Below are positions 2,578 through 31,557 of a stretch of 44,179 nt of DNA, piece after piece. The stretch spans positions 1 through 44,179 of the forward strand of contig VGKH01000006.1 in assembly GCA_016867135.1 (NCBI GenBank), in the 5' to 3' direction. The notes below the pieces were generated by a model that had not been told where the DNA came from, did no database searches, and worked only from the letters and a program-made list of their open reading frames with translations. The stretch is from Candidatus Omnitrophota bacterium. Lineage in GTDB: Bacteria > Omnitrophota > Gorgyraeia > VGKH01. Position 1 is the first letter of the stretch. Each line of letters starts with the position of its first letter. The position numbers and the translations under genes were made by a program.

Positions 2578-3203
2578 TTTATGGGGATAAAACTCTTCCG
2601 GTGAAAAATTGACGGACCAAACTTTCTTATTGCCCTGATATGATCCTCGGTGCCATAACCCTTATGTTTTGAAAACCCGTATTTTGGCTGGATCTCATCC
2701 AAAACTAACATCATTCTGTCACGGGTTACTTTTGCGATAATCGAAGCGCAAGCGATTGACAGGCTCTTTGAATCGCCCTTAATAATACTTTTTATTGAAC
2801 AAGGCACATTTAATACGAGTGAGCCGCCGTCGATTAAAGCGCAAACTGATTGTTTGAATTTACTTTTGGCGATTTTATGCTTCTTGGGCAATTTAGAAAA
2901 CAAATCAAAAAGCGCCTTCTGCATGGCTAAACGAGTTGCCTGCAAGATATTTATTTCATCAATCGCGCTTTCGCTGACCACTCCTAATCCAAAAAACGAT
3001 TTTTCAATAATCTCTTTGAATGCCTTTTCCCGCTGTGAAGCCGAGAGTTTTTTTGAGTCGTCAATCCTGTTTTTGAAACGCCTATCTTTAAGCCAAACCG
3101 CAGAAGCAACAACCGGACCAGCTAAAGGCCCGCGGCCGGCTTCATCAACCCCGACAACGAATTTAAAGCCGTTTCTTTTGGCTTTATTTTCGTAGTAAAG
3201 CAT
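2553..3203 (-). CDS. rnhB: Ribonuclease HII
   Basis: Cleaves RNA in RNA-DNA hybrids and at single ribonucleotides in DNA. The 216-residue protein carries the acidic active-site set: D20 and E21 in the DEAGRGPLAGP motif, an Asp at about 125 in ALIDGG, and an Asp at about 162 in VTRDRMM. The DSKKLS motif of type 2 RNases H is at about 49-54. The ATG overlaps the rplS stop as TAATG, so translation is probably coupled. The C-terminus ends in a Lys/Ser tail that overlaps the yraN start. Confidence 0.96.
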   Translation of the reverse strand: MLYYENKAKRNGFKFVVGVDEAGRGPLAGPVVASAVWLKDRRFKNRIDDSKKLSASQREKAFKEIIEKSFFGLGVVSESAIDEINILQATRLAMQKALFDLFSKLPKKHKIAKSKFKQSVCALIDGGSLVLNVPCSIKSIIKGDSKSLSIACASIIAKVTRDRMMLVLDEIQPKYGFSKHKGYGTEDHIRAIRKFGPSIFHRKSFIPIKCQKKKSS

Positions 3204-3547
3204 TATTGTTCTGTTTCTACTTTGGTGGCCTGTTTTCCGATTCTCTCTCGAAGGTAATAAAGCTTGCTTCTTTTGGCCTTAGATTTTTTGACTAAGGTAA
3301 TCTTATCGATAGTGGGAGAATGCAAGGCAAACACCCTCTCCACTCCCTCGCCAAAAGATATTTTTCTTACCGCAAAACTCTCATTTGTACCTGAGCCGCG
3401 TCGGCTGATAACCACTCCTTCAAAATCATGGATGCGGAATTTATCAGCCTCCGGGACCTTAACCGACACAACTACCGTATCGCCAGGCTTAAAATCCGGG
3501 ATATCTTTTTTAAGGTATGCTGACTCTATTTCTGAGATCTTCTTCAT
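3203..3547 (-). CDS. rplS: 50S ribosomal protein L19
   Basis: A 114-residue ribosomal protein of the large subunit, at the 30S-50S interface. Recognised by the SH3-like core [12 protein letters not shown], the [12 protein letters not shown] segment, the [16 protein letters not shown] segment and the C-terminal KLYYLRER motif, all in order. A run of GGAGG-type sequence lies just upstream of the start. It follows trmD by 15 bases, the classic trmD-rplS order; the usual upstream partners rpsP and rimM are not here. Confidence 0.97.
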
Positions 3548-3562
3548 TTTTCTCCTCCTCTT

Positions 3563-5399
<1,837 letters not shown>

Positions 5400-24256: not shown

Positions 24257-26781
<2,525 letters not shown>

Positions 26782-26794
26782 ATGCTTCTCCTTT

Positions 26795-28567
26795 TTATTT
26801 TACAATCTTCTCTAGCTCTTCCACGGGAGTATCTTCCTTGACGCCGAATATTTCTTGATTATTCAAAAGAAACAAAGGCCCATAGGAAACTTTAAGTTCT
26901 GCAACTAAGCCAATATTCTCCCTTAAGAGCTCCACTGATTCTTCCGACTCAATGCATTTTTTTATTTTATTCGCATCTAGCCTCAGGCTCTTAGAGCAAA
27001 GAGAAAGACTATCTTTGCCTAAGTTATCAATATGACAAAACATATATTCCCACATCTTTTTAGGGTATATTGACATGACGCATAATGCTTGTTTATCTTC
27101 TGCAATTTCAGCGTCTCCGAATGGAGCGCTAAAATTACCTAATTTATTATCTTCTGCGGCTAAGAAATGGATGTTAAAATCGATTTTTCTACCAACCCTG
27201 CCAATCAAATCTTTAGTTTTCTCTAGCGTCTTCTTTGCAATTTTATCCCTCAGGCTTATGAATAAATCCAGCCTATTATTTTGTACAGGCCTATCTAGAA
27301 AATACGATACTCCGACGATAAAAGGATTAAGAAAATAATAATTATCCCTTTCTACTACGGTATGGCTGCTTGAAAAATATGGATAATTAGGGTGCTTGGA
27401 TATTTCTTTTGATACTATATAAATAGGCAGCATGTTAACGTCTAGTTTTGCAATGATTTCTTTTGCCCTTGGACTTTCGCTATCAAGATAATTGACCTCT
27501 CCTACAGGGAAGCGGGTTCCGATCATATCCAGGGTGCTTTGGATATTGCAAGTCTTGCATATCTTAGGAACTATTATAGTCAAATTGACCTTGGCAATCG
27601 GCTCATAAACACAGGCAGCATTTTTTTCTCCTGCATCTTTACATTTTCCGATAAATCCTGGCTTATAACATTCCGGATCTCTAAAGCAGGCAGGTAAGAA
27701 AGAATTTATCTCTTCGTCGTCAGCGATATCCTTACTCATAGGGATATTCTTTTTAACGGAATTTGTAATTACGCCATTTTCTACATCAAGCTCTAAAAGC
27801 CCCAAAGTCCTACCCCACTGAAAAGGCGTCAGATATATAGCAGAATTTAACTTTTGAGGCAGGCTCATATCCGTCTCATTGCTAATAATAATATCGATTC
27901 CTGCGACTTGCTCTGCAACCTGCTTATCCAGATCTTTTCCTAACTGGCTCAATAATACTATAATATCTACTTTCTTCTTTAGGATACTTACGTTTGCCTG
28001 GATTTTCTTCAATGCTTCCGAGGCATCCTCTTTGAATTCAAAACCTCCGGCAGTCTTTATTCCCAGAGGCGAGATACCGATGATCCCGATTTTTATTTTG
28101 CCGACCTTCTTAATCATATAAGCCTGAACTTTAGGCAAATCCAAATTGCACGATAAGAATTTAATTTTCTTTTGTTTAACCTTATCCAAAAGAAAATCCT
28201 TTCCGAAATTAAACTCATCAGCACCGATATTGACGGCATCGTAACCCATGATTTCCATACCCTTAAAATAGATCTCTGTGCGTTTCTTGTCCATCTCGGG
28301 AGTCGTGGCATCAATATCTTGCAGGCCAGAAGCGAAGAAATTTCCGCTGTCAACCAATAAAATGTTCGGATAGTCTTTTCGAAGTTGTTTTATCTTTGTG
28401 GCTCTACGGGCAATCCCGCCGTCGGGAGCTGCCGGGCAATGACAAGCATACAAACTTGCAGATGTATTTCCCGTATAAACTATGGCTATCTTCTCGGCGA
28501 ATACTAAATTACAAGAAAACAATAAGCCAAAACATGCTAATATTGCCGGCAATAATCTACTCTTCAT
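26795..28567 (-). CDS. Exported metallophosphatase-fold / thioredoxin-like fusion, probable pseudo-phosphatase
   Basis: A 590-residue exported protein (signal peptide to about 24). Residues 25-285 follow the UshA/SoxB-type metallophosphatase layout, but the ligand positions look replaced: the usual ND.HG reads GNTSA, the second motif reads SGN, GNHEFD reads GADEFN, LSHLG reads LSQLG and the final G-H-x-H motif reads SNETD. A CHCP motif (42-45) follows motif I. A four-Cys segment (294, 300, 309, 319) leads into a thioredoxin-like domain with KICKTC (Cys 337 and 340) and a likely cis-Pro at about 381. A second thioredoxin/GILT-like domain (about 460-590) has Cys 496, 511, 524 and 538 but no CxxC. 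A DUF1573-CcdA protein precedes it by 9 bases. A periplasmic thiol-redox role is inferred. Confidence 0.75.
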   Translation of the reverse strand: MKSRLLPAILACFGLLFSCNLVFAEKIAIVYTGNTSASLYACHCPAAPDGGIARRATKIKQLRKDYPNILLVDSGNFFASGLQDIDATTPEMDKKRTEIYFKGMEIMGYDAVNIGADEFNFGKDFLLDKVKQKKIKFLSCNLDLPKVQAYMIKKVGKIKIGIIGISPLGIKTAGGFEFKEDASEALKKIQANVSILKKKVDIIVLLSQLGKDLDKQVAEQVAGIDIIISNETDMSLPQKLNSAIYLTPFQWGRTLGLLELDVENGVITNSVKKNIPMSKDIADDEEINSFLPACFRDPECYKPGFIGKCKDAGEKNAACVYEPIAKVNLTIIVPKICKTCNIQSTLDMIGTRFPVGEVNYLDSESPRAKEIIAKLDVNMLPIYIVSKEISKHPNYPYFSSSHTVVERDNYYFLNPFIVGVSYFLDRPVQNNRLDLFISLRDKIAKKTLEKTKDLIGRVGRKIDFNIHFLAAEDNKLGNFSAPFGDAEIAEDKQALCVMSIYPKKMWEYMFCHIDNLGKDSLSLCSKSLRLDANKIKKCIESEESVELLRENIGLVAELKVSYGPLFLLNNQEIFGVKEDTPVEELEKIVK

Positions 28568-28576
28568 ATTCCACCT

Positions 28577-29731
28577 CTATCTAATAATGATTAAAAGAAA
28601 CAAACCTAGGGCAAAGAAAAGCAATGCCGTTAGTAATTTTATTTTCGCAAGATGTCGCTGGGCTAATTTTGCAAAAACCTGGGAAGTTACTCCCCATAAA
28701 GCAAACAAGAATATTATAAGCAAAGGCACGATAAACATAAGATTATATAACATCAAATACATCCATGCCTTAGTTTTTAATTCCGGCATCTTCATTATAT
28801 AGACTATCGTCGGTAGATACAACTGGCCCGTACAGACAGATTCCAAGATTGATACAATAAATCCGCAGCTTAACGCAGTAAAAGCCAAGCGTATAAGATC
28901 CCTGCTTTTGGTAGCGTCTTTCCTGTCATCTGTCTTTTCTCTGATAGTCTCTTGAATTTTCCTCTTGATAATCCCGGGAAGTTTTAATTTTATTTTCTCG
29001 GCATCTTTGGTCTTATTGAAAATCCACCAATCGTACAAACTTATTGCTCCTAAAATCAAAGCGAATATAGCAACTACGATGTAAATAATTTGAGACACTA
29101 AATTAAATATCGCAATTCTCCTTAAGAATTCAAAAAGCCCCAGACCCAACCCCAGATACGTTAAAAATACGGCTAAGATAAAGAATAATCCCAAAATTAC
29201 AGTCTGCTTACGGTTATAACCTGCGAATGCTAGGAATGAAATAAAGAATATGAGAACTGTAAAGGCGCAGGGATTTATACCGTCAATTAGACCGGCCGTG
29301 ACAATTGTCAGCCAACTAAAAGATTTAAACCGCTCTAAAATAACTGCTTTCTCGGGGCGTATATCAGCCAAAAGCTTGATAGTCAAAAGCGGCTGTTTAG
29401 GATCATTAGTATTAATGAAAATGTATTTTACCGTCGGACCTGTGAAACCGGTTGTATCAAATTGAAACAATATAGTTAATTTCTCTTTAGGCGCAAGTTT
29501 AACTGACCCTGAAGGCTCAACAATCTTAACGCAGCCGCAGTCCACCCTTAACGGCTCAACTGCCAACTCCGTGTCTCCAGAATTCTGCACTACAAAGGAA
29601 TATCCATAGACTTTGCCTTCCGCCATTAAAGGCAGTTCAAAAGTCTTTTCTTTAACTGCGATTTGAGGAGCGGCAAAAACATTAGTTGTAATTAACAGAA
29701 CTAAAAGCGTAAAAAATATTAGCTTTTTCAT
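28577..29731 (-). CDS. DUF1573 domain fused to a CcdA/DsbD-type membrane thiol transporter
   Basis: A 384-residue protein: signal peptide (1-20), a DUF1573 immunoglobulin-like periplasmic domain (about 25-122) with the characteristic DCGC (64-67), then a membrane domain with six or more hydrophobic helices. The membrane part carries the two cysteines expected of CcdA-type reductant carriers: GINPCAF (C155) and SVCTGQLYLP (C300). Such carriers pass electrons from cytosolic thioredoxin to periplasmic thiol proteins. The adjacent CxxC-bearing fusion protein is the obvious partner. The gene starts directly after the stop of the small upstream gene, so the three form an operon. The specific client is unknown. 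Confidence 0.85.
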   Translation of the reverse strand: MKKLIFFTLLVLLITTNVFAAPQIAVKEKTFELPLMAEGKVYGYSFVVQNSGDTELAVEPLRVDCGCVKIVEPSGSVKLAPKEKLTILFQFDTTGFTGPTVKYIFINTNDPKQPLLTIKLLADIRPEKAVILERFKSFSWLTIVTAGLIDGINPCAFTVLIFFISFLAFAGYNRKQTVILGLFFILAVFLTYLGLGLGLFEFLRRIAIFNLVSQIIYIVVAIFALILGAISLYDWWIFNKTKDAEKIKLKLPGIIKRKIQETIREKTDDRKDATKSRDLIRLAFTALSCGFIVSILESVCTGQLYLPTIVYIMKMPELKTKAWMYLMLYNLMFIVPLLIIFLFALWGVTSQVFAKLAQRHLAKIKLLTALLFFALGLFLLIIIR

Positions 29732-29976: not shown

Positions 29977-31557
29977 TTATAGCTTGATTACCTTCGCAGA
30001 AATGATATTTTCAGACTTTTTAATCTTCTCTAACACATCTGCCGGCACCGGGCTATCGACATTGATGACGGAAATTGACTTGCCGCCGGCTTCTTTCCTG
30101 CCAAAAGTCATCGCGGCGATATTGATTTTATTGTTCCCGAGCAATGTTCCCACGGCGCCGATAATACCCGGCTTATCCTGATTATGGATGATTATCATAT
30201 AACCTTGCGGGATCGCTTCTACATAATAATCCTCTATCTTTACTATTCTGGGCTTATTATTGCTTGAAAGGGTTCCGCCTACAGTCAATTTTGTTTTATC
30301 AGTCAAGACATCCACTGAAATGAAATTTACAAATTCTTCCTCGGTTTCAGACTTTGCCTCCTGGATCTTTATCCCTCTTTCCTTGGCCAGGCTAAGCGCA
30401 TTAACAAAATTGACCGTCTCTTGGACGACCGGCTCAAGGAATCCTTTTACCAATGCCATGGTTAAAGGCTCAGTCCTCTGCTGGGTTATCGGACCGCTAT
30501 AATTTATATCCACCTGTTTTATCCTTCCTTCTGCCAGCTGGCTAGACAATTGCCCTAGTTTTTCGCAAAGATTAATATAGGGCTCCAAAACTTTGAAAGT
30601 CTGGGGATCAACCGAAGGATAATTTGCCGCGTTTCTGACACCCCTGCCTAAAAGCGCGTCTCTTACCGCCTCGGAAACTTCAATGGCAACATTTACCTGC
30701 GCTTCTTCGGTAGATGCCCCTAAATGCGGAGTCAAGACTATATTGTCCAGCTTCAATAAAGGAGAGCCGGTCGGTGGCTCATTTTCAAAGACATCGATTG
30801 CAGCTCCGGCGATTTTCTTTGACTCAAGGGCTTTAGCCAAAGCCTGCTCGTCGATAATCCCGCCTCTGGCGCAATTAATAATCTTTGTCGTTGGTTTCAT
30901 AAGCGCAAACTCTTTATCGGAAATCAGATGCTTTGTTTCATCGCTTAGAGGAGTATGTATCGTGATGTAATCGCCGCGGGATAAAACTTCTTTTAATTCC
31001 ACGACTTCTACGCCCATCTGCTTTGCTACTTCAAGAGAAATAAAGGGATCAAAAGCAATAACCTTCATCCCGAATGATAACGCCCTTTTGGCAACCTCTG
31101 AGCCTATCCTTCCTAAGCCCACAATGCCTAAAACCTTGCCGTAGAGCTCAGTGCCCATAAATTTTGAACGCTTCCATTCTCCGGCTTTTAGGGATGAGCA
31201 TGCCTGCGGGATGCTTCTTGATAAAGATAAAATCATGCTCATAGTATGCTCGGCGGTAGAAATAGTATTTCCTCCCGGCGTATTCATGACGATGATGCCT
31301 CGGGCAGTAGCTGCTTCTAAATCTACATTGTCCAATCCCACTCCGGCACGGCCGATGACTTTAAGATTGCTAGCGGCATCAATTATCTCTTTAGTTACTT
31401 TTGTCCCGCTTCTTACCACAAGCGCATCATAATCCTTGATAATCTGCTTTAATTCTTCGGGTTTGAGTTCGGTCTTAATATCAACCGTAAGCTCTTTCTC
31501 TTTTTTAAGTATCTGCACTCCCTCATCCGATAGTTTATCGCTTATCAAAACCTTCAT
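29977..31557 (-). CDS. serA: D-3-phosphoglycerate dehydrogenase
   Basis: NAD-dependent oxidation of 3-phosphoglycerate, the first step of serine synthesis. It is 526 residues, the long type: a catalytic and NAD domain (1-310; GLGRIGSEVAKRA, NCARGGIIDE, TPHLGAST with the catalytic His), an intervening ASB domain (about 320-450) and a C-terminal ACT domain (about 452-526, IIHNQDKPGIIGAVGTLL). The ACT domain suggests serine feedback. The gene follows the class V aminotransferase by 35 bases, which gives the pathway's first two steps in order. Confidence 0.97.
   Translation of the reverse strand: MKVLISDKLSDEGVQILKKEKELTVDIKTELKPEELKQIIKDYDALVVRSGTKVTKEIIDAASNLKVIGRAGVGLDNVDLEAATARGIIVMNTPGGNTISTAEHTMSMILSLSRSIPQACSSLKAGEWKRSKFMGTELYGKVLGIVGLGRIGSEVAKRALSFGMKVIAFDPFISLEVAKQMGVEVVELKEVLSRGDYITIHTPLSDETKHLISDKEFALMKPTTKIINCARGGIIDEQALAKALESKKIAGAAIDVFENEPPTGSPLLKLDNIVLTPHLGASTEEAQVNVAIEVSEAVRDALLGRGVRNAANYPSVDPQTFKVLEPYINLCEKLGQLSSQLAEGRIKQVDINYSGPITQQRTEPLTMALVKGFLEPVVQETVNFVNALSLAKERGIKIQEAKSETEEEFVNFISVDVLTDKTKLTVGGTLSSNNKPRIVKIEDYYVEAIPQGYMIIIHNQDKPGIIGAVGTLLGNNKINIAAMTFGRKEAGGKSISVINVDSPVPADVLEKIKKSENIISAKVIKL

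Follow-up and report, generated by a model that had tools for sequence, protein, structure and literature searches.

A UshA-like domain that carries none of the canonical residues of its metallophosphatase site has probably been turned into an extracytoplasmic thiol-redox module in an Omnitrophota bacterium, as judged from sequence and predicted structure. The domain lies at 27719-28495 on the minus strand of the window, that is, of the whole 44,179-nt stretch of DNA that was analysed. According to the mechanism that we propose, the dithiol of a CxC motif (C42-H43-C44) would be the working site, and a CcdA-type membrane protein would carry electrons across the membrane to a thioredoxin-like unit of the same protein and/or directly to the CxC. 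The CxC might then reduce a disulfide, a persulfide or another oxidised substrate in the former phosphate pocket, or it might pass the electrons on. The cysteine pair would in this way take the place of the CxU of UshA-like selenoproteins. We infer the redox cycling of the CxC, the electron supply by CcdA, the absence of metal and any substrate from the comparisons presented below.

The gene occupies positions 26795-28567 of the minus strand and encodes a protein of 590 aa, whose domain borders were set with profiles built for this analysis and with two AF2 models (pLDDT 92.0 for the UshA-like part and 94.8 for the C-terminal part). Residues 1-24 (28496-28567) read like a signal peptide in the translation, with an AF2 helix at 5-20 of low pLDDT, which suggests that the protein is secreted or extracytoplasmic. 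The UshA/5′-nucleotidase-fold domain (residues 25-283) is followed by a four-Cys segment (residues 285-325, 27593-27715) with C294, C300, C309 and C319, for which no clear Pfam hit was found, then by a thioredoxin-like unit (residues 326-427, 27287-27592) and finally by a DsbA/GILT-like unit (residues 428-590, 26798-27286), all on the minus strand. The sequence-only reading had placed a degenerate metallophosphatase domain at 27700-28500, an extent that does contain the domain as delimited here; it had overlooked that the protein is much larger than this domain and fuses it to the three segments just described. Thioredoxins match the thioredoxin-like unit weakly in a PDB profile search (E 0.008-0.05), and alignment shows that the unit holds the features of a thioredoxin oxidoreductase, a CxxC (CKTC, 337-340) and a cis-Pro motif (L380-P381). 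As for the last unit, VIA aligned residues 144-307 of the C-terminal model with GILT (Z 17.4, 158 residues aligned, rmsd 3.5) and with DsbA (Z about 15-16; S. aureus DsbA, Z 15.9). The Cys pair of a CxxC active site is absent at 430-451 from this unit in all 47 orthologs, and its cysteines C496, C511, C524 and C538 lie within a helical insert.

Residues 25-283 are clearly predicted to carry the 5′-nucleotidase/UshA fold, and we regard this assignment as secure because phmmer, NCBIfam and VIA-align on the AF2 model concur. Among PDB sequences, phmmer found 7d0v (1.1e-13), CD73 (3e-11), 2z1a (1.7e-8) and SoxB 4uwq (3.7e-8), and VIA-align of residues 20-320 gave 2z1a (Z 32.1, rmsd 2.7, 268 aligned), with CD73 at Z about 31 and SoxB 2wdc at Z 30.3 (rmsd 2.4, 258 aligned). 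The earlier claim that the metallophosphatase framework is kept is thus borne out, with Z scores of 30-32. The NCBIfam matches were to NF041198 (3.5e-37), SoxB (1e-23) and UshA and cyclic phosphodiesterase models, all of them under the curated cut-offs, and the Pfam Metallophos model gave no match to the 590-aa protein. Neither did Pfam match a C-terminal 5′-nucleotidase substrate domain in it, the C-terminus being DsbA/GILT-like instead. Among named groups, the UshA-like (seleno)protein families with CxU or CxxU come closest by profile score, but the window protein misses their cut-offs: it reaches 128.2 bits against 275 for NF041198 (UshA_like_PCGU) and 55.4 against 140 for NF049981 (UshA_like_Sel_2). 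SoxB TIGR04486, the second-best NCBIfam match, is at 83.5 bits against 550. NF041198 is over its cut-off in none of 285 Omnitrophota genomes. The match of the window protein to this model includes the CxU/CxC feature after motif I (C42-H-C44) and stops at model position 273, so that the C-terminal part of the model (395-519) is unmatched. A PF00149 search of the bacterium's own genome showed five further metallophosphatase places.

The active-site positions of E. coli UshA, which we take to be D41, H43, D84, N116, H117, H217, H252 and Q254, with H117 as the general acid and not a metal ligand, correspond in the window protein to N34, S36, N76, A116, D117, Q208, E231 and D233, respectively. By alignment and on this numbering, 0 of 8 ligand or catalytic positions is canonical. 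Two independent alignments gave the same letters, HMMER pairwise (motifs II-V) and MAFFT against intact enzymes including E. coli UshA, and they confirm the earlier statement that all canonical metal ligands are replaced; at motif V the replacement stands, but not the "His pair" said to have been lost there, since UshA has H252 and Q254 at these places. In the MAFFT comparison, eight canonical domains (L108-L111, L115, L116, L118 and L121, including SoxB, Deinococcus, Sporosarcina and Bacteroides sequences) kept the motifs over their aligned parts, the starts of L108, L110 and L121 being unaligned and E. coli UshA being complete through motif V in one of two runs. A plasmid tblastn search returned only canonical-type annotations, four of which were taken as controls.

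How far does this loss extend beyond the window protein? In one alignment of 47 Omnitrophota orthologs, with a same-genome copy reached by two tools included only once, the canonical residue survives at D41 in 4, H43 in 37, D84 in 0, N116 in 4, H117 in 0, H217 in 13 and H252 in 17 sequences, and Q254 appears as Q or N in 5. No canonical position is left in five orthologs (the window protein, its genus mate, L013, L015 and L016), one is left in 19, two in 9, three in 13 and four in a single sequence. Total ligand loss is therefore a property of the window's genus and three other sequences, and partial loss one of the whole family. With D84 absent family-wide and all ligands absent from the window protein, the dinuclear metal site is gone, and the window domain would be metal-free. 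The former ligand columns are among the more variable of the 259 columns of the domain, with entropy ranks of 154 (D84), 170 (D41), 212 (N116), 223 (H217), 229 (H252) and 251 (Q254); the exception is H43, at rank 89 the sole fairly conserved one. A five-residue remnant, E-H-D-H-H, is kept by L039, the sister of the lineage formed by the window protein and its genus mate (SH-aLRT 93 in a quick tree). The set E/D-H-D/N-H-H without D84 is found in 12 of 48 rows, the outgroup L078 included, and shows at least 7 state changes on the tree. Their direction is likely that of repeated loss, though no more than likely given the long branch to the outgroup. The sequence-only reading had allowed that homologs retaining the ligands would speak against it; L039 does retain this remnant, but neither the bridging Asp (D84) nor the full canonical site is kept by any of the 47 orthologs.

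Against these variable columns stands the CxC (28436-28444, minus strand), which lies within a CHCP motif directly after the former motif I. C42 and C44 are kept in 47/47 orthologs and have zero entropy. This contrast argues for the redox role and supports the earlier suggestion of a pseudoenzyme or a repurposed site, perhaps using the CHCP. Each of C294, C300, C309 and C319 is likewise kept in 47/47, as is the LP of the cis-Pro motif, and C337 and C340 are kept in 44/47. The three exceptions (L047, L057 and L061) have lost C337 and C340 together and all retain the CxC, a persistence that also speaks for the redox role of the latter. L053 likewise lacks both C496 and C538, and because of these joint losses we suggest that 337-340 and 496-538 form cysteine pairs. 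L015 and L016 have none of the four helical-insert cysteines; these two, L008 and L059 show CxxC instead of CxC. Among the domains listed in the MAFFT comparison, every full-length CxC domain has a broken canonical site, and the CxC occurs in none of the eight canonical domains. Heme binding by the CHCP was rejected, as it is not a CXXCH and this motif is absent from the window protein, and so was selenocysteine, the codons being for cysteine only. No in-frame stop codons were seen inside the relatives' matches among those listed.

The case is wider than the sequence-only reading had it, since the UshA-fold CxC domain recurs with redox partners. In one family (six sequences) the CxC domain and a CcdA membrane domain share one ORF, and in other families a Trx-DsbA unit and CcdA do so. 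At L158, from another class of Omnitrophota, the CxC domain (EPCGC) precedes four CXXCH motifs, that is, a tetraheme part, and a DUF1573 gene (with SCGC) lies directly upstream and runs into the CxC-domain ORF. As both halves of NF041198 find a match in this ORF, whose CGC is equivalent to the CxC of the window protein, its PCGC appears to be the counterpart of "PCGU" in the name of the model. An Armatimonadota protein of 1189 aa (L079:4914-8480, plus strand) combines two UshA-like CxC domains with Trx/DsbA-like units and a cytochrome c region, and the part of NF041198 at model positions 395-519 is multiheme in both L158 and L079. Across all loci covered, 78 proteins matched the domain over at least 180 residues, and in these we counted redox modules (CcdA, Trx/DsbA or two or more CXXCH in the chain), taking as positive those with CxC or CxxC followed by GG; six proteins, including E. 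coli UshA, fell short of this length and were left out. A module was present in the same chain in 67 of 70 full-length CxC domains versus 0 of 8 without CxC. The 67 of 70 is inflated by the fact that the positive set was largely gathered by homology to a query bearing Trx/DsbA, and the controls without CxC are few. The cytochrome fusion and some CcdA fusions were reached also through the N-terminal domain family. Both the count and the fusions to CcdA and hemes argue for the redox reading. Two of the three exceptions stand at contig ends, and the third, L113, has its Trx/DsbA part in an overlapping ORF that follows (1468-2667 and 2634-3794, plus strand), a state that may reflect a split gene or an assembly frameshift. 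Two ORFs of 1113 aa (L152:996-4334, plus strand, and L153:1892-5230, minus strand) carry repeated Trx/DsbA-like units and a CcdA domain in one chain.

Directly upstream of the UshA-like gene, at a gap of 9 nt, is a gene (28577-29731, minus strand) whose product, by Pfam and motif alignment, joins a DUF1573 domain (CGC at C65-C67) to a CcdA-like membrane domain. It scores 43.7 bits with DUF1573 (PF07610), over the cut-off of 26.1, and 52.4 bits with the OS_HP2 (seleno)protein model NF041425, under the cut-off of 100; the NPCAF and CTGQ motifs of its CcdA-like domain are aligned in 8 relatives. Only 8 of 39 Omnitrophota loci have such a gene next to the UshA-like one, which counts against the redox reading. 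Across 99 relatives, however, a strong CcdA match (E below 1e-30) is found in 13 of 15 genomes with a full-length ortholog versus 26 of 84 others (Fisher p 7e-5, kinship being ignored), which counts in its favour. G011 and G069, where the protein is present and an intact CcdA match is absent, again weigh against it. The CcdA-like matches at G064:C211, G005:C1 and G011:C67 contain in-frame stops and may be copies in decay.

Might the gene simply be decaying? The loss of ligands looks stepwise and the domain is absent in one lineage, yet this explanation is already contradicted and we give it hardly any credence. The frame is open, the window protein is 71% identical to its genus mate (dS between the two is saturated), and the Nei-Gojobori dN/dS of the UshA-like domain is 0.092 for L015/L016 (zero canonical residues), 0.100 for L012/L014 and 0.104 for L067/L068 (one each) and 0.223 for L043/L044 (three each). 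Purifying selection still acts on the domain in relatives without any ligand; from the pairs with zero or one canonical residue it follows that it is not simply decaying, and their values of 0.09-0.10 are in line with a redox role. That the protein is still a phosphatase or nucleotidase with other ligands is just as remote: the fold is intact (Z 32), but in the family almost all ligand columns vary freely and Asp84 is kept in 0/47. The absent domain concerns the G028 ortholog (L150:6376-7410, minus strand), a protein of 345 aa encoded between serA and purA that consists of the four-Cys segment and of the Trx and DsbA-like units behind a signal-like start. With the whole CxC domain missing, the domain must be dispensable there, which counts against the redox reading.

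That same lineage fits a scaffold pseudoenzyme, where the UshA-fold domain would serve the Trx/DsbA-like part only as a docking site for a substrate or partner, with the CxC as a structural disulfide, since the rest of the protein can be kept without the domain. A CxxC and a cis-Pro motif are present in the Trx unit itself, and Vps29 provides a precedent, described in the accessible text as a degenerate metallophosphoesterase fold that serves as a scaffold and has Asn for the bridging Asp, as in the window protein (PMC2674652). Vps29 differs in being part of the eukaryotic retromer, and a CxC goes unreported for it in that text. We nevertheless consider a scaffold unlikely, because the CxC is fused to CcdA and hemes without any Trx unit, persists when the Trx CxxC is lost and, in named relatives, has Sec in CxU, hardly what a structural bond would need (PMC2398784, PMC13188914, from the accessible parts of both). 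The CxC could also bind one metal (Zn, Fe or Cu) with remaining His, Asp or Glu residues, making a mononuclear enzyme or a metal-handling protein. Such a site would agree with the coherent E-H-D-H-H of sister and outgroup sequences (12 of the 48 rows), with the same set in L078 and L079 from other phyla, and with the metal binding of Vps29, which has Asn and Asp in exchanged places according to the accessible text (PMC2674652). We find it quite improbable, however, for the window protein no longer has the set, whose state changes at least 7 times on a tree where the CxC is retained.

The redox reading also draws on known selenoproteins. The accessible text of a 2008 GOS survey describes UshA-like (COG0737) selenoproteins with CxU and OS_HP2 (DUF1573) selenoproteins with UxC, its discussion distinguishing UshA-like from those families whose Cys-based redox motif is conserved (PMC2398784), and that of a 2026 review lists NF041198 (CxU), NF049981 (CxxU) and DUF1573 (UGC) (PMC13188914). 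Sec in these CxU and UxC motifs argues for a redox site. Our literature search, with limited coverage of subscription journals, found no paper on the function of the window protein. It resembles NF041198 in its UshA fold, in a Cys pair at the same place, in its apparent secretion and, through L158, in a DUF1573 neighbour, but scores below the cut-off, has Cys and not Sec, and ends in Trx and DsbA-like units and not in a multiheme cytochrome. NF049981 shares the fold and a Cys/Sec motif, there CxxU as opposed to CxC. UshA, CD73 and the 5′-nucleotidases have the fold of residues 25-283, whereas the window protein lacks their metal ligands and C-terminal substrate domain and has the CxC. SoxB thiosulfohydrolase, which handles cysteine-bound sulfur, is alike in fold (Z 30) but keeps its di-metal ligands. 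DsbA, GILT and thioredoxin with CcdA/DsbD are matched in the C-terminal fold, the CxxC and cis-Pro motif of the first unit and the CcdA-type neighbour; the lack of a CxxC in the DsbA-like unit and the fusion to a UshA fold set the window protein apart. We anticipate, tentatively and as a generalisation that we lean slightly against, that CxC/CxU UshA folds might be a separate class of thiol (selenol) oxidoreductases of non-thioredoxin fold, where a dithiol replaced the two-metal centre and which are wired interchangeably to CcdA, thioredoxin/DsbA or multiheme cytochromes and to DUF1573 CxC partners, the window protein being a ligand-free end state. If so, a hydrolase fold would have been converted to electron transfer, and a single phylum would preserve many intermediate stages in the loss of its metal site. 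Since the fusions point to partners (CcdA, Trx/DsbA, multiheme cytochrome and DUF1573), the function of UshA-like selenoproteins becomes testable. Only a remainder of the UshA-like domain is recognisable in one family (L020, L024 and L148), with a CxxC (CLPC/CILC) about where GGxARR otherwise stands.

The wider neighbourhood is biosynthetic. A serA-like gene (29977-31557) marks the upstream end of a conserved cluster, which continues downstream of the UshA-like gene with a homocitrate/isopropylmalate-synthase-like gene (leu, 25546-26781) and ends with a purA-like gene (24257-25534), all on the minus strand. The order serA-(ccdA)-ushA-leu-purA is kept in Omnitrophota, to which, or to similar labels, 39 of 41 homologous loci in named records belong; serA was hit in 37 and leu in 38 of these 39, the misses being at contig ends. 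As serA abuts leu directly in 12 of 16 regions picked for having no linked copy, the UshA-like gene sits in an older cluster. Functional coupling to serA, leu or purA was rejected as evidence; the cluster is uninformative on redox work and was counted against the redox reading. The leu product falls under every NCBIfam cut-off shown, and most relatives of the class have it at 66-89% identity over almost its whole length, with its gene adjoining serA or the UshA-like gene.
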